Shown here: positions 52,798 to 61,910 of the stretch, piece after piece | Numbering within the stretch: the first letter of the stretch is position 1 | Layout of the letters: each line of letters starts with the position of its first letter | Source of the DNA: Desulfatitalea tepidiphila | GTDB lineage: Bacteria > Desulfobacterota > Desulfobacteria > Desulfobacterales > Desulfosarcinaceae | Direction: 5' to 3' | NCBI RefSeq assembly: GCF_001293685.1 | Contig: NZ_BCAG01000003.1 | Coordinates: forward strand, 434,001 to 498,000 | Length of the DNA stretch: 64,000 nt | The notes under the pieces: model-generated | Told to the model about the DNA's origin: nothing | What the model saw: only the letters and a program-made list of their open reading frames with translations | Database searches by the model: none | Translations under genes and position numbers: made by a program

Positions 52798-52932
52798 ATG
52801 AAAAGCTATCGGCAAGAACTGTGGTTTGAAGTGCCGACACGGCGTGCCTTCATCAATATCACACCCCAAGTCGAGGCGTGCCTGCGGGAAAGCGGGATAC
52901 AGGAGGGGCTCGTGCTTTGCAAGGCCAAGTAA
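52798..52932 (+). pseudogene. yjbQ: 5' fragment of host yjbQ, interrupted by the element
   Basis: AAAGGAG precedes ATG; the frame reads [18 protein letters not shown] and is about 90 percent identical to the first 41 codons of the intact copy at 59539. At LCN the host sequence stops (after AA at 52921-52922) and element sequence gives LCKAK and a TAA. YjbQ (UPF0047) proteins have secondary thiamin-phosphate-synthase activity; this fragment lacks all the His-containing part and should not work. Its missing 3' part is at 61619-61910. Confidence 0.92.
52921..52922. other. attL core (AA)
   Basis: Host yjbQ reads CTTTGCAA up to here, then element sequence GGCCAAGTAA follows. The inferred empty site is CTTTGCAACGCCATG. 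Confidence 0.75.
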
Positions 52933-53208
52933 ACGTACTTTTTTTTGAAATGACCGAGACCGCATAGGCTCGCCGCCAGGCTTTTTCCCGTACCAGAATT
53001 ACTTCTTCACCACACCCACCAAAAAACAAAATCCATAAATAAAACAAGGGAATACAGAAATGTGTTCCTTTGTTTTTTTAATTTAGAGCGATTTATTTAA
53101 TTTTTTATTTAAATAAAACAATAGGTTATACTATTTTTCTACTTGACTATTGGTGCAATTGATTTTATTAGTTTGTTAAAAACCAATAACCGAAAAAGGA
53201 TAACAACA

Positions 53209-53463
53209 ATGACAACCCCCAATGAAATCGGACGCTTGAAGGCTGAGGAAGAAATCGAAATGGCACTCGCGAAGTACGGAAAAACCGAAAAACGGATCAC
53301 AACCATAGCAATCGACAAGCAGCTCTGGACACTTTTCCGGGCCAAGTGTCTAATGGAAGACAAGACCGCGACCGCTGTGATCAGCGGATTGGTTACAGAC
53401 TACCTCAAGAAAGGAACGCAAAAAAATGTTGCGAATCCTCAATTTCGCCGCCTCAAGTCCTGA
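53209..53463 (+). CDS. Small ribbon-helix-helix-like DNA-binding protein
   Basis: 84-residue protein. ATG 53209 is preceded by AAAGGATAACAACA; an upstream in-frame ATG at 53143 has no site. The central TTIAIDKQLWTLFRAKCLME followed by a second helix TATAVISGLVTDYLK is the strand-helix-helix pattern of RHH repressors and plasmid partition/copy-control proteins. First gene of the element; its stop overlaps the protease gene by 38 bases. Could repress the element's own genes or the adjacent att region. Assignment by pattern only. Confidence 0.6.
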   Translation: MTTPNEIGRLKAEEEIEMALAKYGKTEKRITTIAIDKQLWTLFRAKCLMEDKTATAVISGLVTDYLKKGTQKNVANPQFRRLKS

Positions 53464-54514
53464 CCGCCCTAAGTGGACAAAGACCGCAGAGGGCTGGCTG
53501 CGCTGCCGCGCACGTATTTTGGCCGAAAGGGTGATGCCATACACAGCCGACGAGCTTGTTGGCGCACTTCCCCCCAATTTCCCAACCGATGAAATTCTAA
53601 TGGCCGTAACAAGACAGGCCATGACCGATCCCGATGCACTACGCAGCCTTGAAGGTGTTCCATTAGTGGGCGGGGACCATCATTGGCTCGACGAAAATAA
53701 TGTGAAGCAGTTCGCTATCGGTGCCGTAGCTGGCACACCCAAATTGGACGGCGATTACCTTGTTTGTGATCTCCTCGTTACATTTCCCGAAGCAATTCGT
53801 GCCATAGAAGCCGGTGAACTTGGAGAGATCAGCGCCGCATACGTGGCCGAAACAACGTATGAACCGGGCATCCTCAATGGGCAACGATTTGATGCAATTC
53901 AGCAGCAACTGCGATTCAATCACCTTGCTATCATTCCTCCCGGCTACGGCAGGGCGGGTGAAGATGTTCGAATTTTTAATTTGAAAGGAGTACGACCAAT
54001 GAATTCCGAAGCATTTGAAAACGGACGCAACAAAGCCTTGTCCGAAATCCAGGCTAAGTTGGACGCAGCCAAGAGAAAAAAACTCTCCAACTACGATTTT
54101 GACCAGGAAGAAGCCGACGAACTGGCCCTCGCCAATATCACCAACAGCGACCCCCAGGCCACCCTTCGACGAATTATGAACCAGCGCCGCACCAATCGCT
54201 TTGGCACGCCCCACTTCACGCCTGCCGATGTCCGGCGCATGATGAATGCCAGGGACCGGGAGGATGCCTCGTTTGCCGATGTGCGAGCAATGAATCGCAC
54301 TATTGCCCTTGCCAAAATGGGTGTGATGAATGCCGGTGAAGCCCTTGAATCCATCGAGGAATTGCGTGCCAAGGCTGGATTACGAAAGATTCGGCGAAGC
54401 AAAGTCGGCAACCTGCCGACCGCTGCCGAGGCATTGGAAGTTGGCTACAAGAAGTATAAAAATCGTCGAGACCCGTTGGAGAAGATGGGTTTCAAGGGTC
54501 GGAAAGAGGATTAG
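53426..54514 (+). CDS. DUF2213-type phage prohead protease-like protein
   Basis: 362-residue protein whose first ~190 residues resemble DUF2213 phage proteins, a prohead-protease-like group: GVPLVGGDHHWLDENNVKQF (His candidate), YLVCDLLVTFPEAIRAIEAG and GELGEISAAYVAETTY (catalytic Ser candidate), then QLRFNHLAIIPPGYGRAGED, where the LxFNHLA(I/L) segment is characteristic. The C-terminal 170 residues are charged and helical (FENGRNKALSEIQAKLDAAK) like a scaffold. In full phages such proteins mature the capsid; here no capsid gene was seen. Overlaps the preceding gene; next gene follows after 2 bases. Confidence 0.65.
   Translation: MLRILNFAASSPDRPKWTKTAEGWLRCRARILAERVMPYTADELVGALPPNFPTDEILMAVTRQAMTDPDALRSLEGVPLVGGDHHWLDENNVKQFAIGAVAGTPKLDGDYLVCDLLVTFPEAIRAIEAGELGEISAAYVAETTYEPGILNGQRFDAIQQQLRFNHLAIIPPGYGRAGEDVRIFNLKGVRPMNSEAFENGRNKALSEIQAKLDAAKRKKLSNYDFDQEEADELALANITNSDPQATLRRIMNQRRTNRFGTPHFTPADVRRMMNARDREDASFADVRAMNRTIALAKMGVMNAGEALESIEELRAKAGLRKIRRSKVGNLPTAAEALEVGYKKYKNRRDPLEKMGFKGRKED
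53999..54514 (+). CDS. Nested in-frame scaffold-like product of the protease gene
   Basis: Inside the protease frame, ATG 53999 (MNSEAFENGRNKALSEI) is preceded by GAAAGGAG, 7 bases away, the best ribosome-binding site in the gene. It would make a 171-residue charged, helical protein, the same layout as lambda C/Nu3, where a scaffold is translated from within the protease gene. Inference from the site and domain layout. Confidence 0.5.
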   Translation: MNSEAFENGRNKALSEIQAKLDAAKRKKLSNYDFDQEEADELALANITNSDPQATLRRIMNQRRTNRFGTPHFTPADVRRMMNARDREDASFADVRAMNRTIALAKMGVMNAGEALESIEELRAKAGLRKIRRSKVGNLPTAAEALEVGYKKYKNRRDPLEKMGFKGRKED

Positions 54515-54516
54515 AA

Positions 54517-54819
54517 ATGGCAACGAAACCCACAGGAAATGGAACGATTTTTCGCCGGAATGTGACGTCCCCCAATACTCCACCCGGGGGGTCTTCCCCG
54601 GCGAAGAATAACCGGCTCAACTCCATCAAATCGGTGCGCCAATATTTAGCTTCGTTGATTCACCGCCTTGAGGAACGACATGGTGGTGTTCTGGATTCGG
54701 CCCTGGCCGGACGGTTGGCCTACATTTCGAATATTTTGTTGGGTGCTATCAAGGATGCAGACCTCGAGAAACGCGTGGCCGAATTGGAACGCAGGCTTAA
54801 GGAAAGGGGGCTTCTATGA
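54517..54819 (+). CDS. Small protein with C-terminal coiled coil, unknown
   Basis: 100-residue protein, two bases after the protease gene. The N-terminus is Pro/Gly/Ser-rich and basic (KPTGNGTIFRRNVTSPNTPP); the C-terminus is helical with a heptad pattern (LEKRVAELERRLKERGLL). Its start NGTIFR also occurs in the 109-aa protein at 58397. The stop overlaps the next start (ATGA), so it is translated with it. Position after a protease/scaffold gene suggests a packaging or regulatory role, but no family was recognised. Confidence 0.55.
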   Translation: MATKPTGNGTIFRRNVTSPNTPPGGSSPAKNNRLNSIKSVRQYLASLIHRLEERHGGVLDSALAGRLAYISNILLGAIKDADLEKRVAELERRLKERGLL

Positions 54820-55121
54820 GAGCAATCGAACGTAAAATTTTCCAATTGGAGCAGATCGCACGGCCTGGAGAAGATACTGCTGCCGCCAAGGCCATGGCCG
54901 AACTGACCATTGCCTTGATGAAGGAATCGCTTCGCGAAAACCCAGACCATCCCTGCCAGGAGGCCATGGCCGAACAGAAGGCCATCATCAAGGCGATTGA
55001 AAGTGGTAATTATCGCCAAAAAACGTATCAGTTTTTTATGGACCGCGACGAACGGGCCGCATCGGTAGTTGCCGAGCTGCGGGATGTCTTGGCCCAGGAA
55101 CCAGCACAAACAGAGTTTTAG
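54816..55121 (+). CDS. Small helical protein of unknown function
   Basis: 101-residue acidic, Ala/Glu-rich protein predicted to be almost all helix (AAAKAMAELTIALMKESLRE; RAASVVAELRDVLAQEPAQT). No Cys, no membrane segment, no known motif. Translationally coupled to the preceding gene by a four-base overlap. About 215 bases without a supported gene follow. Confidence 0.55.
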   Translation: MRAIERKIFQLEQIARPGEDTAAAKAMAELTIALMKESLRENPDHPCQEAMAEQKAIIKAIESGNYRQKTYQFFMDRDERAASVVAELRDVLAQEPAQTEF

Positions 55122-55337
55122 CGTAAGGCGTGGGCTGTCCCTCACACAGCTCGCCGGCCAGGCGTGGCCGTAGGGCCTCTCCTCCCAACGCCCGGACCAG
55201 CCAGCGGTGTCCGAAAAAACACTGGCAAGCCGTCCGCAGCGGGACATTGCCCTACCTGACGGGCGGATCAACCCCCAGGAGGACATGGGCCGTGTCCACC
55301 CATGTCCTCCATCCCCAAAATAATTCAGAGGTGAGTT

Positions 55338-56237
55338 ATGACGGATACCTTACCATATAGACGCAGAGTGCGTGTCTTGATCGGCCCATTAGAAGAATGG
55401 AGAGGTGGTGGAAACGAAAAACTCTCCGTTGCCCTTGATGGCGATGGAACTCAATCGGGTTTGCGGATAAAATTTCAGGTGCACCAGCATGTTGTTAGTA
55501 CAGCAACCCCTACTGTCATCCAAATCTACAACCTGAGCAAAGAGCTTCGAAACGAACTACAAAAACCAGCCATCCAGATTGCTTTGTGGGTTGGTTGGTA
55601 TGATACCGATTTGGTGTTGCTCTACACTGGAAGTCTTTTGCAGGCGACGAATTATCGCCACGGACCGGATATCGTAACAACCCTTCTCACAAATGCCGCG
55701 TTTGGTGGGTTAAGTAGAACAGTCTTGGCACAGACTTTTGCCGGTGGTTCGAAGTTACGAGATATTGTTTTGAACATTGCCAAGAGGATACCGGGGGTTG
55801 TGGTAGACCCAAAGAATGTAAATATCAACACCACCAAGAGAATTGGAAACCAAGGCCTAAGTTTTGCTCTTCCAATCAATGAAGCATTAGATGGCTTATC
55901 ACGTGTCTACGGTTTCAGTTGGAGAGTGGAGAATAAAATTTTTTATGCTATTGTTGATGGCACTTATCTCGGCACAAATAAGCCTGTCATTAGTCACAGG
56001 AACGGTTTTCTTCTTCGGTGTGAACCGATGCTGACCGGCGCTTTCCAGCAGCAAAGAGGCGTCATTATTAATTCCATTCTAAACCCATATGTTAAGGCGG
56101 GTGGCCTGGTCGCGTTGGACAGCGCCGTCAATCCCCAACTGAATAGGGACTATGTTGTGCATGAATTATTTCACAACGGTGACACCCACGCCTCGACCTG
56201 GGAATCTCACGTCCATTCATTTATCCAGGTTGGATGA
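55338..56237 (+). CDS. Phage baseplate-hub-like protein
   Basis: 299-residue protein. GAGGTG stands before ATG. It resembles contractile-tail hub/gp27-like proteins: SGLRIKFQVHQHVVSTATPT, VIQIYNLSKELRNELQKP, ALWVGWYDTDLVLLYTGSLL, NYRHGPDIVTTLLTNAAFGG, and a second barrel with SRVYGFSWRVENKIFYAIVD and RNGFLLRCEPMLTGAFQQQR. The protein lacks the tail-spike and lysozyme parts. Alone it cannot make a tail, so it may belong to a helper-dependent element or a relic of a larger phage. No other tail gene is present. Confidence 0.6.
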   Translation: MTDTLPYRRRVRVLIGPLEEWRGGGNEKLSVALDGDGTQSGLRIKFQVHQHVVSTATPTVIQIYNLSKELRNELQKPAIQIALWVGWYDTDLVLLYTGSLLQATNYRHGPDIVTTLLTNAAFGGLSRTVLAQTFAGGSKLRDIVLNIAKRIPGVVVDPKNVNINTTKRIGNQGLSFALPINEALDGLSRVYGFSWRVENKIFYAIVDGTYLGTNKPVISHRNGFLLRCEPMLTGAFQQQRGVIINSILNPYVKAGGLVALDSAVNPQLNRDYVVHELFHNGDTHASTWESHVHSFIQVG

Positions 56238-56529
56238 TAAAGTTTTATTTCCAGTTTTATGCCGATATTTAGCCCGTAAATCGTCATTCAAGCACCTACC
56301 AAACCGTCCTAACTGAATAGATTACGGCAAATTTATTTTTAGTTCTACGGAAAAATTCAACGTCCAAACTGTAAAATAAAATAACAGGTTCCCGACCAAT
56401 CGGCCTGACGGCCACGTGGCGGTGAACACAACCGGGGATAGGGTCGCTCCCGAAAAGTGGTTGGCCAACTCCCTCCACCACTTTCCCCGGCTTCTTCAAT
56501 TGGGAGAAATTGAAAAGGAGGGATTCAAA

Positions 56530-57942
56530 ATGTCACAAATCTTGTTTAGACGCACGAAGTCTGCACCCACCCCGTCAACACCTACTCGTTTGGCCAACCC
56601 CAAAAAAAGTGTTTCGTTGAATTTCAAAAATGAAATTACTCGTCCAAGTCCTTTTTTGATCAGTGATGAAGAACTCAACCCCCAGGGCTACATCGAAAAG
56701 AAGTACGGCGAAAACACAATTCGTGTCCATGGCAAGCTGAGAGAAAAAGACCGCCAAACGCTAATCACGCTTTTGGCCATCTACAAGACTTCCGGCAAAC
56801 ACCCACTAAATCTAAAAATTTCGGATATTGCCAAGGCTGGAAATATCAAAAATCCCTACAATGAATCTACTCTCCAACCGATTAGGGAAAGTATTGACAG
56901 GCTGAAATTGGCACGGATTGAAATAAACCCTGGCCCATCCAGGCTAAAAAGAAACTCGGCCACCTTCATCTTTTTACACGGCTGGCGTCGGGATGACGAT
57001 ACCTGTCAACTATTCTTGGCAGATTACTTAAATACCGCTTTGAATTTTGGTATCGGTTTTTACATCCAACCGGCGATCTACTACGAGTTGAGTAGTGATA
57101 TCGCTAAGGCACTTTTTTGTTTTCTCCAAAGTCAACGCATGCCCTACACAATTCGTCTGGCAAAGCTTTGCGAGTTCATAAATTATGACCCCGCTGGCCA
57201 ACCTTGGAAGAAAATTTGGCAAACCGTTGACAAGGCCCTTAAGCAACTATTGGCCAAGGGCATCATTGGTAAGTATACTCGTGACGGTGCTAAACTAAAG
57301 GAGGATGGGGGTCTTATCACCATCGAAGGCCCAGGCCGGAAGACGTTGGACGTAGCAAATCCTTACGTTGACATGGCCAACCGTCTGGCGGAAGTTCTCC
57401 AAAAAGCAAAGGGTATCAAAACAGAACAGCGCAAAGTAAATTTTTGGGCAAACAATATCAAATCCCTGGTCGAAGACAAAGGTGTCGTTATTGGCCGAAT
57501 CGAAGCTGCGCTGTTGTGGTACGAAGAATTCCACAACAGAGAATTTACTCCCCAAATCGCATCTGGTAAAGATTTGCTGGAGAAATTTCCAAACCTTGAG
57601 GATGCTGTACAACGACACAAAAAAGAGCTGTGGCGTTCCAACCAAATTGATCCGGATAGAGAATCTTTCGTAGTATTCCTCCCTGACGAGGTTCATGCAT
57701 TCGCCAGCAAATACGAATACAGCGAACCCACCCCGCCAAAGCCTAAGTCACCACCAAAGCCGCAACCGGCCCCGCCTCCTGCAAAAAAAGCAGAACAACA
57801 ATCCAGCCGATGCCCATTTGGTGGCGCCTTTGGGGAAGACTGCAACGGCTTGGAGAACTGTGATTCTTGTCCGGCCGAGATTTGGAAACAATGCCAGGAC
57901 GAATATGACAGGAAAAATTACACTCACCTATTTACCGAGTAG
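56530..57942 (+). CDS. rep: Plasmid-type replication initiator
   Basis: 470-residue protein. ATG 56530 follows AAAAGGAGGGA; an upstream in-frame start reads a nonsense tail. The core (HGKLREKDRQTLITLLAIYK, PLNLKISDIAKAGNIKNPYN, PIRESIDRLKLARIEINPGP; then ALFCFLQSQRMPYTIRLAKL, WKKIWQTVDKALKQLLAKGI) has the two winged-helix layout of iteron-binding initiators of the RepA type. A Pro-rich linker (SEPTPPKPKSPPKPQPAPPP) leads to a C-terminal Cys-rich patch (CPFGGAFGEDCNGLENCDSC), a possible zinc site, unusual in Reps. The gene's last codons lie in the first iteron copy. It should bind the downstream 22-bp repeats and start replication of the circular element. Confidence 0.75.
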   Translation: MSQILFRRTKSAPTPSTPTRLANPKKSVSLNFKNEITRPSPFLISDEELNPQGYIEKKYGENTIRVHGKLREKDRQTLITLLAIYKTSGKHPLNLKISDIAKAGNIKNPYNESTLQPIRESIDRLKLARIEINPGPSRLKRNSATFIFLHGWRRDDDTCQLFLADYLNTALNFGIGFYIQPAIYYELSSDIAKALFCFLQSQRMPYTIRLAKLCEFINYDPAGQPWKKIWQTVDKALKQLLAKGIIGKYTRDGAKLKEDGGLITIEGPGRKTLDVANPYVDMANRLAEVLQKAKGIKTEQRKVNFWANNIKSLVEDKGVVIGRIEAALLWYEEFHNREFTPQIASGKDLLEKFPNLEDAVQRHKKELWRSNQIDPDRESFVVFLPDEVHAFASKYEYSEPTPPKPKSPPKPQPAPPPAKKAEQQSSRCPFGGAFGEDCNGLENCDSCPAEIWKQCQDEYDRKNYTHLFTE

Positions 57943-58148
57943 GTGATAACTATGTTGCGAACATAAAAAACCATGGAACCTATTGAAAAAACACAAAATC
58001 CCAATACCGTAGGGTGGGGGTTTGGTGTTCTCTTCTTTTTTAACCTATTTACCAAGTACCAGATACCTATTTACCGAGTACCAAAAACCTATTTACCGAG
58101 TACCCGAAACCTATTTACCGAGTACCAAAAACCTATTTACCGAGTACC
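57926..58148. repeat. Iteron array, replication origin
   Basis: ACCTATTTACCGAGTACC-type repeats begin at 58043, 58065, 58087, 58109 and 58131, spaced exactly 22 bases, i.e. about two DNA turns, so the Rep sites face the same side. A sixth, shorter copy (57926-57941) overlaps the end of rep, which could let Rep autoregulate. One iteron (58043) reads CAAG instead of CGAG. This is the classical design of iteron-type plasmid origins. Confidence 0.92.
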
Positions 58149-58192
58149 AAAAACCATGGAAGGTATTGAAATAACACAAAATCCCAATACCG

Positions 58193-58300
58193 TAGGGTCT
58201 TTTTAGGGTCTTTTTAGGGTCTTTTTAGGGTTTATATACAGGGGGTCCCTGGACATATTTTTCTTTTCTTTTTTATTTTTTATTTTTTTTTTGGAGAGCT
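58193..58300. repeat. 11-bp repeats and AT/pyrimidine-rich DNA-unwinding region
   Basis: TAGGGTCTTTT is repeated at 58193, 58204 and 58215, then 58226 starts a partial copy. From ~58255 a T-rich stretch of ~40 bases follows (CTTTTCTTTTTTATTTTTTA). Repeats next to an AT-rich block beside iterons are typical of the melting region of a plasmid origin. The phrase AACACAAAATCCCAATACCG occurs on both sides of the iteron array (57988 and 58174). Confidence 0.75.
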
Positions 58301-58303
58301 AAC

Positions 58304-58400
58304 ATGTCCAAAGAAATTTAAGCATGGATGAAATACTTCCAATGAAAAACATGCCCAAAGAAAATTTTAGAGTAATACTTCCAATGAAAACAAAAAATGC
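58304..58400. repeat. Triplicated translation-start region
   Basis: ATGTCCAAAGAAA at 58304, ATGCCCAAAGAAA at 58351 and ATGCCCAAAGA at 58397 recur every 46-47 bases, and ATACTTCCAATGAAAA is duplicated between them. The first copy is preceded by GGAGAG but reads only five codons to a stop. Only the third copy opens the 109-codon gene. Confidence 0.7.
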
Positions 58401-58726
58401 CCAAAGACATCAAAACCAAATTACCGTCCAAAGCATCTATCACCAACGGCCACGCGCTACCACGCCATGCCAAGGTGATGATGGCAGGGGTGCCGCGCCC
58501 AATGTCTAAACTGCCCAAAAACGGTACTATTTTTCGTGATAAAATAGGGGGGTCGGTAGGGGTACCTACCCCCAAAGGTTTTCCACCGCAAATTTTGGCG
58601 CTACGGCCGGTTTTTTGCGGTTTTAATAACCGGGACGTACCACCAAAAAACGGTCCCTTAAACCCCAAACCACCCAAACCCAAAAAACAGGCCATGACCT
58701 GCCATTTTTTGCCATCAAAAAGATGA
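58397..58726 (+). CDS. Small, very basic protein of unknown function
   Basis: 109-residue Lys/Pro-rich protein (DIKTKLPSKASITNGHALPR; NGPLNPKPPKPKKQAMTCHF) from the third copy of a repeated start sequence, but without a strong ribosome-binding site. No motif or membrane segment was seen. It shares NGTIFR with the 100-aa protein at 54517. High basicity suggests nucleic-acid binding; reality of the gene is uncertain. Confidence 0.35.
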   Translation: MPKDIKTKLPSKASITNGHALPRHAKVMMAGVPRPMSKLPKNGTIFRDKIGGSVGVPTPKGFPPQILALRPVFCGFNNRDVPPKNGPLNPKPPKPKKQAMTCHFLPSKR

Positions 58727-58840
58727 AACAAATTAGGGATTTTCCTTTGAGTTCGGATGGTTGAAGGCCCATTTTGCCTTGATTTTAGACACCGGACCTG
58801 TCGATAAACTCAATATAAAACTTTTAACGGAGGGCAAAAA

Positions 58841-59518
58841 ATGGAAAAACTTGTGCAATTCCCAAACAAAACAGGCGCAAAGACCAAAAAATCCAGGCCA
58901 CGAAACACCGATGGCCCAAAATATTTCACCGCCCAACAGATTAAGGCCCTGCGGCGAACTGCCCGGGATGCGGCCGCGCTGGCCCAGGACAAGGGCAGGG
59001 TGACCGGCATCCGCGATTGGATGGTGATTGATTTATTGACCTCGACCGGCCTACGGGTTAGCGAAGCTGCCGATTTGCGCTGCGGCGATGTGATGGCGGG
59101 CTATGGCGAATCGGCGATATGGATTCGAAGTGGGAAAGGCTCCGTTAGCGGGACCGTGATAATACCTGAAGGGTTGAAACGTCATTTGAAGTGGTACATT
59201 AATTGGAAAGAGGACCGCAACGAACCCACCGGACCTGATGACCACATTTTTATCGGGCAGCGAGGTCCGATGACCGCCCAGGCTTTGCAACAAATTGTGA
59301 AAAAGTTCCTGAAACGCCTTGGATTGTACCAGCGCGGAAAGAGCACACATGCGCTTCGGCATAGTTACGCAGTCGAATTATATTCGCGAGAGCGGGACTT
59401 AAGAGCCGTTCAAAAGCAGCTTAGACATGTGTCCATTCAAAGCACATTGGTGTACGCTGATGTTACGAAAGAAAAAATCGCGGACCAAGTTAAAAATCTT
59501 TGGGGAGGCAACTCATAA
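58841..59518 (+). CDS. Tyrosine recombinase, short XerC/D-like form
   Basis: 225-residue catalytic-domain enzyme, with GGAGGG before the ATG. All six catalytic positions can be placed: Arg72 ([11 protein letters not shown]), Lys99 (RSGKGSVSG), His170 and Arg173 ([10 protein letters not shown]), His196 (LRHVSIQ) and the nucleophile Tyr205 (TLVYADVT). It has only a short N-terminal arm instead of a full core-binding domain, as in resolvases that act on plasmid dimers. Given that the junctions have the 2-bp core of a serine integrase, its role is likely dimer resolution rather than integration. yjbQ starts 20 bases downstream. Confidence 0.88.
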
Positions 59519-59538
59519 CAGAGGGAGGGAGGCAAAAA

Positions 59539-59955
59539 ATGAAATCCTATCGCAAAGAACTTTGGTTCGAGGTGCCCACGCGGAGGGCTTTTATCAATAT
59601 CACGCCACAGGTCGAGGCATGCCTACGTGAAAGCCAAATTCAAGAGGGCCTTCTACTTTGCAATGCGATGCACATCACAGCCTCGGTATTTATCAATGAC
59701 GACGAAAGCGGCCTGCACCACGATTATGACCAATGGTTGGAAAAGCTGGCCCCCCATGCGCCCGTTGGCCAATACCAACACAACGTCGGCGAGGACAACG
59801 CCGACGCCCACATGAAGCGTCAAATCATGGGCCGGGAGGTTGTCTGTGCCATAACAGAGGGGAAGTTGGATTTCGGGACCTGGGAACAAATATTTTATGG
59901 CGAATTTGACGGCAGACGGCGAAAGCGAGTCCTGGTTAAAATCATCGGCGAATAA
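59539..59955 (+). CDS. yjbQ: Element-borne intact YjbQ (UPF0047)
   Basis: 138-residue full-length YjbQ, same length as the gene the element splits. GGGAGG precedes the start. Family signatures: [20 protein letters not shown] (His metal-type residues), [20 protein letters not shown] and [20 protein letters not shown]. It is about 90 percent identical to the rejoined host protein but its DNA differs at many third positions, including around the attachment core (AATGCGATGCAC instead of AACGCCATGCAT). It would restore the function lost by insertion. YjbQ has secondary thiamin-phosphate synthase activity in E. coli; the true role is unsettled. Confidence 0.93.
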
Positions 59956-59962
59956 GGGGGCC

Positions 59963-61654
59963 ATGATGAACGCAAAATTGTCAAAACCGATTATTTTCGC
60001 CCCCCTGGTTCGTGTGTCCACAGAGGGCCAGGCCAAGAAGGGCGAAAGCCTACGCACCCAAAAACAGCAAATTATGCGGGCCGTTGAGCATTTGGGCGGC
60101 ATCCTGATGGATGACCCATGGCGGTATAGTGGCCAGGAGCATGCAACGGAAAATTTCGAACGGAAAAAGCTGAACCAGCTATTAGCCGATTCGGCCAAGG
60201 GCATCTTCGATGCCGTAATCGTGGCCGACGCCTCACGGTGGAGCCGGGACAACTTAAAAAATGAAGAGGGGTTGCGCATCCTGCAAAAAAATGGGGTGAG
60301 ATTTTTCGTCGGCACCACCGAACACAACCTTTTTGACCCTACGGCCCGCATGTTTTTGGCCATGGCCGCAGTGATTAACCAATACCAGGCCCGCCTTCAG
60401 AACCAAAAATCCATAGACAACCGTATTGAACGGGCAAAGCGAGGCCTCCCAACCAGTGGAAAACTACCGCACGGACGCACTTTTGACAGATCAACCGGCA
60501 AATGGGGAATCGATAAGGACAAACAACAAAAGATAATTTGGGCTGCGGAGCAATACCTTTCGGGCGAACCGTTGCCGAAGCTGGCCAAAATCCTTGGAAT
60601 GAACCATGCCAGCCTTTGGAAAACTCTAACCCGCCGCAGCGGTGACACATGGGAAACGCATTACCGTTCCAAGGAGTTGGGAGTGGATGAAACCGTTAAG
60701 ATAAAAATCCCACCCCTGCTGCCACCAAAAACCATCGAGCAAATTTTAAAACGGGCGGCATCGAACAAAACTTATACGCACGGCCATCAAAAGTATAAGT
60801 ATCTGCTGGCGCGGGTGGTTTTTTGTGACGAGTGTGGATATGCGATGTTCGGCCAAACAAACATGCATAGCAATAAAAACCGCTACTATCGCCACCCCCG
60901 TGAACGAGAACGAGTGAAACAATGCAGCCAAGGCCCCGGCCTTTGGGTGCGGGCTGACGAATTGGACAAGGCGGTATTCAACAAACTTTTTGCCCTGGTC
61001 GGTGATGTGGCCGGCCTGGAAAAAGCCATGCTCAAGGCGCTGCCGGACACGACCAAGCTTGATGACCTGCTGGCCCAAAAAGCCACTTTTGAAAAAGAGT
61101 TGGCCCAAATCCAGACAGCGAAACAAAACCTGATTGGTGCCATCGCCAAAGGCATTTTAACGGACGAGGACGCCAAGGGCCAAATGGCCGATTTGAAATG
61201 TAGCGAGCAGGGCATAAAAAAGGCCATCGAAAACATTGACGGCCAGTGCCAAGGCATCCCTTCCCGTGAACAACTTCGCAGCAAGGCACAACTCATCACG
61301 CACACCCTAAAATGGGTCTTTAGACAATGGCATCGGGTCGACAAAATGAGCTGGACCGAACGCCGGAAATTGGTCGAAAAATTTTTTGATGGGGTGGACG
61401 CAGATGGACGTAGACTGGGCGTTTACGTAAGACGGGATGCCGCAAACGCTTTACGGTACACGATCCGCGGCACGTTGTATGCGTTCGATGGTGTTTTGGA
61501 CCCTGAAAGCGACCCGGACGACCAGGGGAATGAACCGCTCGAACATACTGAAATGTTTGTGAATAATGACTTCAACGAGGTGCCGTCAAACGGTGTTAAA
61601 CAAGATATGTCTGGCAAACGCCATGCATATCACGGCATCCGTCTTTATCAATGA
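59963..61654 (+). CDS. Large serine recombinase (integrase)
   Basis: 563-residue enzyme; ATG 59963 follows AAGGGGG, and a frame extension upstream overlaps yjbQ. Resolvase domain with nucleophile Ser19 in [40 protein letters not shown], then a recombinase domain ([40 protein letters not shown]) and a zinc ribbon ([20 protein letters not shown] with a later Cys in [12 protein letters not shown]), then a coiled coil ([20 protein letters not shown]). The gene runs across attR: the last ~12 codons (after SGK) come from host yjbQ in another frame. In the excised circle it would instead end SGKAK and TAA, the same codons that close the left yjbQ stub. Confidence 0.92.
61617..61618. other. attR core (AA)
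   Basis: Element sequence ...ATGTCTGGCAAA joins host CGCCATGCATATC. Only AA is common to both junctions and the target reading TGCAACGCC. Confidence 0.75.
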
Positions 61655-61910
61655 CGATGAAAGCGGCCTCCATCACGATTACGACCAGTGGTTGGAACGT
61701 CTCGCCCCGCATGCTCCAGTGTCCCAGTACCATCACAATGTGGGCGAGGACAATGCCGATGCCCACATGAAGCGTCAGATCATGGGGCGGGAGGTCCTGG
61801 TCGCCGTGACCGAGGGCAAACTCGATTTCGGAACTTGGGAGCAGATTTTTTACGGTGAGTTCGACGGCCGCAGACGCAAGCGTGTCCTGGTGAAAATCAT
61901 CGGCGAGTAA
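61619..61910 (+). pseudogene. yjbQ: 3' fragment of host yjbQ
   Basis: Continues the host gene from CGCCATGCAT (…[20 protein letters not shown]) to the end VLVKIIGE with TAA at 61908. Fused in frame to 17 element-encoded codons from an ATG at 61566 ([17 protein letters not shown]), so a chimeric product is possible but without the real N-terminus. The distance and match to 52798-52922 define the insertion. Confidence 0.92.

Follow-up and report, generated by a model that had tools for sequence, protein, structure and literature searches.

An integrated element in the yjbQ gene

The window, a stretch of 64,000 nucleotides from Desulfatitalea tepidiphila, contains an element of 8,696 bp (52923-61618) whose insertion has split the chromosomal yjbQ gene (UPF0047). 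Coordinates are those of the window, and the genes, RNA and repeats located by them lie on the forward strand. The 5' part of host yjbQ (52798..52922) has 89% identity to residues 1-44, and the 3' part (61619..61910) 88% to residues 35-138, of a full-length yjbQ copy carried by the element itself (59539..59955; PF01894, 2e-36), which appears to replace the interrupted gene. The ends given by an earlier sequence-only reading proved exact when the junctions were compared with an empty site. The attL sequence reads CTTTGC/AA/GGCCAAG, with its AA at 52921..52922 within host yjbQ, and attR reads TCTGGCA/AA/CGCCATG, with its AA at 61617..61618 forming the end of the element; in another genome of the genus (G007, L025) the site is unbroken and reads CTTTGC/AA/CGCCATG (CTTTGCAACGCCATG), with flanks that otherwise match. 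This comparison places the crossover at a 2-bp AA, which, judged from these junctions, is as expected for a serine integrase.

The large serine integrase that had been recognized in the element lies at this att site (59963..61654) and has both resolvase (1e-15) and Zn-ribbon (7e-9) domains. Its gene overruns attR into host DNA, so that by our reading its last codons would differ between the integrated and circular forms. Upstream of yjbQ is a gene for an Xer-like tyrosine recombinase of 225 amino acids (58841..59518; PF00589, 2.5e-27), a candidate dimer resolvase that is 59-68% identical across seven loci. At the left end of the element, a small ribbon-helix-helix (Arc/ParG-like) protein (53209..53463) is a candidate regulator with weak family matches (phrog_582, Arc-like, E 0.004; ParG, E 0.03) and a 34% match in a related element of Desulfosarcina widdelii PP31 (NZ_AP021875, L016). 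Two further small proteins are encoded at 54517..54819, with 43% identity over 65 amino acids to the same D. widdelii element, and at 54816..55121, an ORF without a family match. No relaxase or mobilisation gene was recognized among the element genes scanned. The assembly, which consists of 7 contigs, holds a single integrated copy of the element, and no circular contig was found in it.

A divergent initiator and its iteron origin

The rep gene runs from an ATG at 56530 to a stop codon ending at 57942 (56530..57942) and encodes a protein of 470 amino acids that we classify as a divergent TrfA/RPA-type initiator. By itself, Rep has no match in Pfam, PHROG, NCBIfam, PDB, or plasmid or phage records, and no direct homologue in plasmids, phages, IMG/VR, or 96 other relatives. 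A search of 389 genomes of the class returned a single clear distant relative, in Desulfobacteraceae bacterium Eth-SRB1 (a MAG of a different genus; RPGP01000001; G150, loci L014/L017), and a profile made from the two sequences recovered only the window Rep itself from 395 genomes of the phylum. Two weak matches of the Rep search were set aside, one (L005) as unrelated and the other (L004) as a different Rep_3-like protein without repeats.

Direct searches returned none of the plasmid-borne Rep homologues whose absence was to count against the sequence-only reading, but a distant homology to plasmid TrfA emerges when profiles are compared. With an alignment of three TrfA sequences, hhalign matched residues 33-252 of Rep over 204 columns at an E value of 2.9e-5, and Rep combined with its Eth-SRB1 homologue at 2.5e-14; the best of 100 Rep shuffles reached 0.023, and values of 0.11-0.88 were obtained against TrfA for the C-terminal part of Rep and for five further proteins of the element. 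This profile-level similarity extends over both DNA-binding domains and supports a distant homology of Rep to plasmid TrfA. We file Rep as a distant relative of TrfA/RPA/Rep_3, and hence not as a curated member, in keeping with its lack of a curated family match.

Structure prediction bears unequally on the two winged-helix-like halves that had been ascribed to Rep. A single-sequence AF2 model was useless (pLDDT 36), and a two-sequence model was poor overall (pLDDT 44), with residues 181-270 averaging 55-84 per block. In the two-sequence model, residues 176-275 align with RepE54 at Z 9-10.4 (VIA-align), where unrelated rows reach about 6, and the second winged helix aligns with the TrfA-DNA structure at Z 6.6 (VIA-align). 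Foldseek placed nine plasmid-initiator chains among the top 32 of 350,542, with no match of any kind passing E 0.001. The model supports a resemblance of the second winged helix to RepE54, whereas the first would be located by the alignment together with a low-confidence model. Toward the C-terminus of Rep (57808-57900) is a cysteine cluster (CPFGG..DCNGLENCDSCP...QC) that perhaps binds metal.

Beyond rep lie five iterons (ACCTATTTACCGAGTACCAAAA; 58042..58151), which start at 58042, 58064, 58086, 58108, and 58130, a spacing of exactly 22 bases, and the last bases of a sixth (57926..57941) are those of the rep stop codon. This is the number and spacing claimed earlier: with 0-1 mismatches allowed, the iteron 15-mer occurs at just these six sites in the 5.6-Mb genome, and the period-22 score (81 of 88 bases) is the highest for any period of 10-60 in the 64 kb, compared with a maximum of 46 in 200 dinucleotide shuffles of the region. 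A degenerate seventh iteron can be read at 57947. The 17-base motif AAATCCCAATACCGTAG occurs at 57996..58012 and again at 58179..58195, where it leads into four 11-mers (TAGGGTCTTTT three times and TAGGGTTTATA; 58193..58236) of the kind that make up a DNA unwinding element. A T-rich melting stretch follows (58256..58292), and the 80-mer at 58256 is, at 79% AT, the second most AT-rich in the window. Direct repeats at helical spacing thus adjoin rep, and the 11-bp repeats and T-rich region described from the sequence are present as an AT-rich unwinding region with short repeats (58193-58292). The stretch 57926-58015 recurs at 58109-58198 with 82% identity, each 90-base copy ending in the 17-base motif, and the origin therefore seems to be a partial tandem duplication, with an amplified array in its second half.

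The replicon had also been called complete, but a DnaA box could not be detected. A search with the E. coli consensus only, which a diverged box could escape, detected none in the origin and none above chance in the window (9 sites with 1 mismatch, one of them at 58799, versus 8.8 expected). A sigma-70 promoter scan was at chance level.

The Eth-SRB1 element provides a second occurrence of this layout. Its Rep (544 amino acids) matches PF10134 (Replication initiator protein A, 3e-8) and plasmid TrfA, and has 26% identity to the window Rep. Directly after its rep come seven iterons at exactly 22 bp, then AAAATCCCAATTCCGTAG, four repeats starting with TAG, and A/T-rich DNA, the motif AAATCCCAATWCCGTAG standing in the same register to the TAG repeats as its counterpart in the window does to the 11-mers. 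The origin motifs match at 17 of 18 positions (at most 14 in 20 shuffles), and the 17-base motif is present in 2 of the 389 genomes, that of the window and Eth-SRB1, solely within these origins. With Rep identity at just 26%, the noncoding DNA conserved in both origins therefore points to function. The element, of about 8.7 kb, also resembles that of the window in having an int-alpA-like RNA before rep, a tyrosine recombinase 66% identical to the Xer-like one, and a serine integrase as its boundary within a split gene, but this integrase is only distantly similar, the target is a response regulator/cyclase gene, and the cargo is different. At the level of sequence, the Eth-SRB1 element is an independent repeat of the same replicon layout. 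The 17-base motif also turns up, apparently by chance, in two contigs of IMG/VR (L060, L061), which have neither iterons nor Rep.

A winged-helix fold is by itself no proof of an initiator, and for a protein without a family match one could imagine that Rep is a transcription factor and that the repeats serve as operators, either of rep or of a different regulator. That the 22-bp period, the position after rep, the motif, the four unwinding-type repeats, and the T-rich tract all recur in Eth-SRB1, next to a Rep with PF10134 and TrfA matches, makes such a role highly improbable. The iteron-type replicon that had been proposed inside this integrated element is, in our view, well supported by its anatomy, by the resemblance of Rep to plasmid TrfA at the profile level, and by the recurrence of the layout in an independent element.

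A putative int-alpA leader and a probable exchange of replication modules

An int-alpA RNA (RF02996; 56431..56505) ends 25 nt before rep and scores 37.8 bits (gathering cut-off 35.8; E 4e-5). In the D. widdelii element, an int-alpA RNA (L016:6439-6506; 45.5 bits) lies about 20 nt before an unrelated rep-like gene, and just before the Eth-SRB1 rep is an int-alpA-like sequence (L014:9604-9677) that, at 33.5 bits, falls below the cut-off of 35.8. The sequences of these three RNAs differ and their stems are kept, and an alignment of ten int-alpA sequences has compensatory changes in 8 of 14 pairs. The stem-loop pattern was found in 59 IMG/VR contigs, many of them with an ORF starting about 24 nt past the RNA, and all of the pattern-matched contigs checked by Rfam (9/9) proved to be int-alpA. 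The D. tepidiphila genome has two further int-alpA RNAs (L135, G000:C3:2838865; L136, G000:C3:1165370), each just before a tyrosine integrase.

Rfam files int-alpA as an sRNA. Its position suggests a 5' leader, and it would seem to serve the genes of mobile elements in general in this way, not to act as a free sRNA. Its presence just before three different rep genes offers a concrete, testable role for an uncharacterised RNA. Elsewhere, int-alpA precedes integrases or DUF6387 genes. Rfam gave no match in L018, L021, L072, L074, or L075; an E. coli island (L137) was rejected as a carrier with a score under the cut-off, and L099 and L107 were kept.

The D. widdelii element, the closest sister, shares with that of the window its yjbQ target and the int-alpA RNA before a rep-like gene, as well as the serine integrase (57% identity), recombinase (68%), and head protease (47%). 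Both carry a complete, intact copy of the yjbQ that they interrupt. A GT crossover was considered for D. widdelii; AA suits both elements if the native site read GTAAAT. The sister element differs in its other cargo, in having no 22-bp iterons, and in its rep-like gene, which encodes a winged-helix protein of 290 amino acids with a weak O-like helix-turn-helix match; this protein is not TrfA-like. Target, integrase, recombinase, and protease are common to the two elements but rep is not, and replication modules have therefore probably been exchanged on a shared chassis, as is reported of SGI1-like islands and PLEs. Given a closest sister without it, the iteron module of the window element may be dispensable or swapped. 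In a more distant integrase relative (G091, L075), a rep-like gene is related to that of D. widdelii (28% over 193 amino acids). At another locus (L020:8682-8707), a homologous tyrosine recombinase is preceded by TTGCTACCCTA 11-mers (TAGGGTAGCAA when read from the opposite strand) that recall the TAGGGT 11-mers of the window.

The relatives also bear on whether the element is alive. An active origin inside a chromosome is expected to be harmful, and the single copy and the lack of a circular form in the assembly would fit a dead relic whose replicon is non-functional when integrated and which never leaves. We judge this improbable: the ORFs of rep, integrase, and recombinase show no damage, the iterons are nearly identical, the att cores are intact, and related integrases sit at yjbQ in three further genomes (D. 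widdelii, G335, and G153, judged by adjacent yjbQ remnants).

Mode of spread and known systems

Two genes of the element encode virion proteins. The first is a DUF2213 phage head-maturation protease with a C-terminal extension (53426..54514; PF09979, 7e-28; phrog_530, 3e-35), and the second a phage baseplate hub protein (55338..56237; PF22759, 1e-14; phrog_196, 5e-35) that is 57% identical to a hub from the baseplate cluster of a myophage (L054). Both stand alone, the rest of the phage structural cluster being absent from the element, and the phage-like genes noted earlier amount to these two but to nothing beyond them. By reading, the candidate H, S, and NH positions of the protease agree with the D. 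widdelii copy. IMG/VR searches with protease, hub, and integrase gave just three matches, all to the hub, and neither Rep nor the integrase was found there. In the absence of a recognized mobilisation gene, lone virion genes make phage-mediated transfer plausible.

The element could be a phage satellite that is silent until a helper infects or is induced, whereupon it leaves the chromosome, multiplies from its iteron origin, and enters the particles of the helper, whose heads or tails would be the targets of the protease and hub. This is compatible with an iteron replicon, the difference being the mode of spread, and it would fit the intact lone virion genes, the protease shared with the D. 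widdelii sister at 47%, the lack of a relaxase among the scanned genes, and the size of 8.7-9.2 kb. A lone HK97-type major head protein in the more distant integrase relative (L075:5305-6705; phrog_10, 7e-68) points the same way, as does an int-alpA in a 14.9-kb contig (L099) with integrase, primase, major head protein, protease, portal, connectors, and terminase. We take this gene order to be the capsid-forming-PICI layout. Against this, Pfam and PHROGs identified no terminase small subunit, primase-rep, or PICI-type or other known satellite regulator among the element genes, in this same genome int-alpA is likewise found ahead of ordinary tyrosine integrases, no helper is known, and IMG/VR searches returned neither Rep nor the integrase. 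In a PICI-style origin, iterons would stand in two sets, one on either side of an AT-rich region; here they lie on one side only. On balance we hold the satellite life style to be a real but minority possibility.

Slightly better odds, which still fall short of even, go to a plain integrative plasmid, itself carried passively, that acquired its serine integrase and phage genes by chance, the latter being without function. Rep, iterons, Xer-like recombinase, and integrase amount to a full maintenance kit, and the remaining cargo varies among elements; however, the protease block has stayed open at 47% identity in two species at the same site, which argues for selection, and a mobilisation gene is lacking. 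More speculative, and in our view unlikely, is a Desulfobacterales family of phage satellites of about 9 kb, built from a TrfA-type iteron replicon, a serine integrase, and lone virion genes, with int-alpA as a 5' switch on the initiator. If true, this would be the first sight of such a family, and the orphan int-alpA would turn replication on upon mobilisation of the element.

Our preferred explanation, to which we give a probability of roughly 0.7, is that the element is integrative and brings an iteron replicon of its own, a replication module used after excision, as in SGI1; once out of the chromosome, it can probably replicate in circular form, much as the earlier reading supposed when it had the element exist as a plasmid too. 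While it is integrated, its own yjbQ copy would cover for the broken gene. The serine integrase would recombine attL with attR at AA, freeing a circle and restoring yjbQ, and Rep production could be controlled by the int-alpA leader RNA, perhaps also by the ribbon-helix-helix protein. Rep is predicted to bind the 22-bp iterons with both of its winged helices, open the 11-mer and T-rich region, and recruit the host replisome. The array and the iteron that overlaps the end of rep might provide copy control in the style of TrfA and RepE. Dimers would be resolved by the Xer-like recombinase, and the integrase would return the circle into yjbQ. Plasmid tools are scarce for this group of bacteria, and the 400-bp ori with rep is also a candidate vector backbone.

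Among plasmids, the closest parallels are RK2 TrfA/oriV and F RepE/oriS, which have in common with the window element iterons adjoining rep and four short T-rich repeats, and whose initiators are of the two-winged-helix type that Rep probably shares, its first winged helix being putative. The unwinding region of RK2 oriV has four 13-mers and that of F four 8-mers, TTTTTA[G/T]A (PMC4081077); the four 11-mers of the window contain TTTTTAG. Unlike these systems, the window has a Rep below Pfam detection with a long C-terminal part and cysteine cluster, an origin without a detected DnaA box, an iteron over the rep stop codon, and a location in an integrated element. Iterons at 22 bp also occur in an RPA-type plasmid from Rubrobacter (L064; NZ_CP031116.1 103856-107578). 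There they contain CTAT and lie upstream of the gene for an RPA/TrfA initiator with a DnaA_N-like C-terminal domain.

Among integrated elements, PLE of Vibrio cholerae (PMC8263062) and the PICIs (PMC6092414) are satellites that likewise bring an initiator of their own, together with iterons and a modular replicon. They differ in their RepA_N or primase-type initiators and known helper phages, and their hallmark regulators and terminases were not found among the genes of the window element. SGI1 is likewise integrated, has rep with an iteron oriV downstream, replicates after excision, and exists in variants that swap the replication module (PMC7433901); particular to it are 17-bp iterons with a DnaA box, mobilisation by IncC plasmids under AcaCD control, a larger size, and other genes. 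Integrated elements with their own iteron replicon are therefore already known from SGI1, and what is new here is the serine integrase chassis, the divergent Rep, the int-alpA leader, and the lone virion genes. To the short list of self-replicating integrated elements (SGI1, PLE, and PICIs), the D. tepidiphila element adds an iteron replicon whose initiator is missed by family searches.
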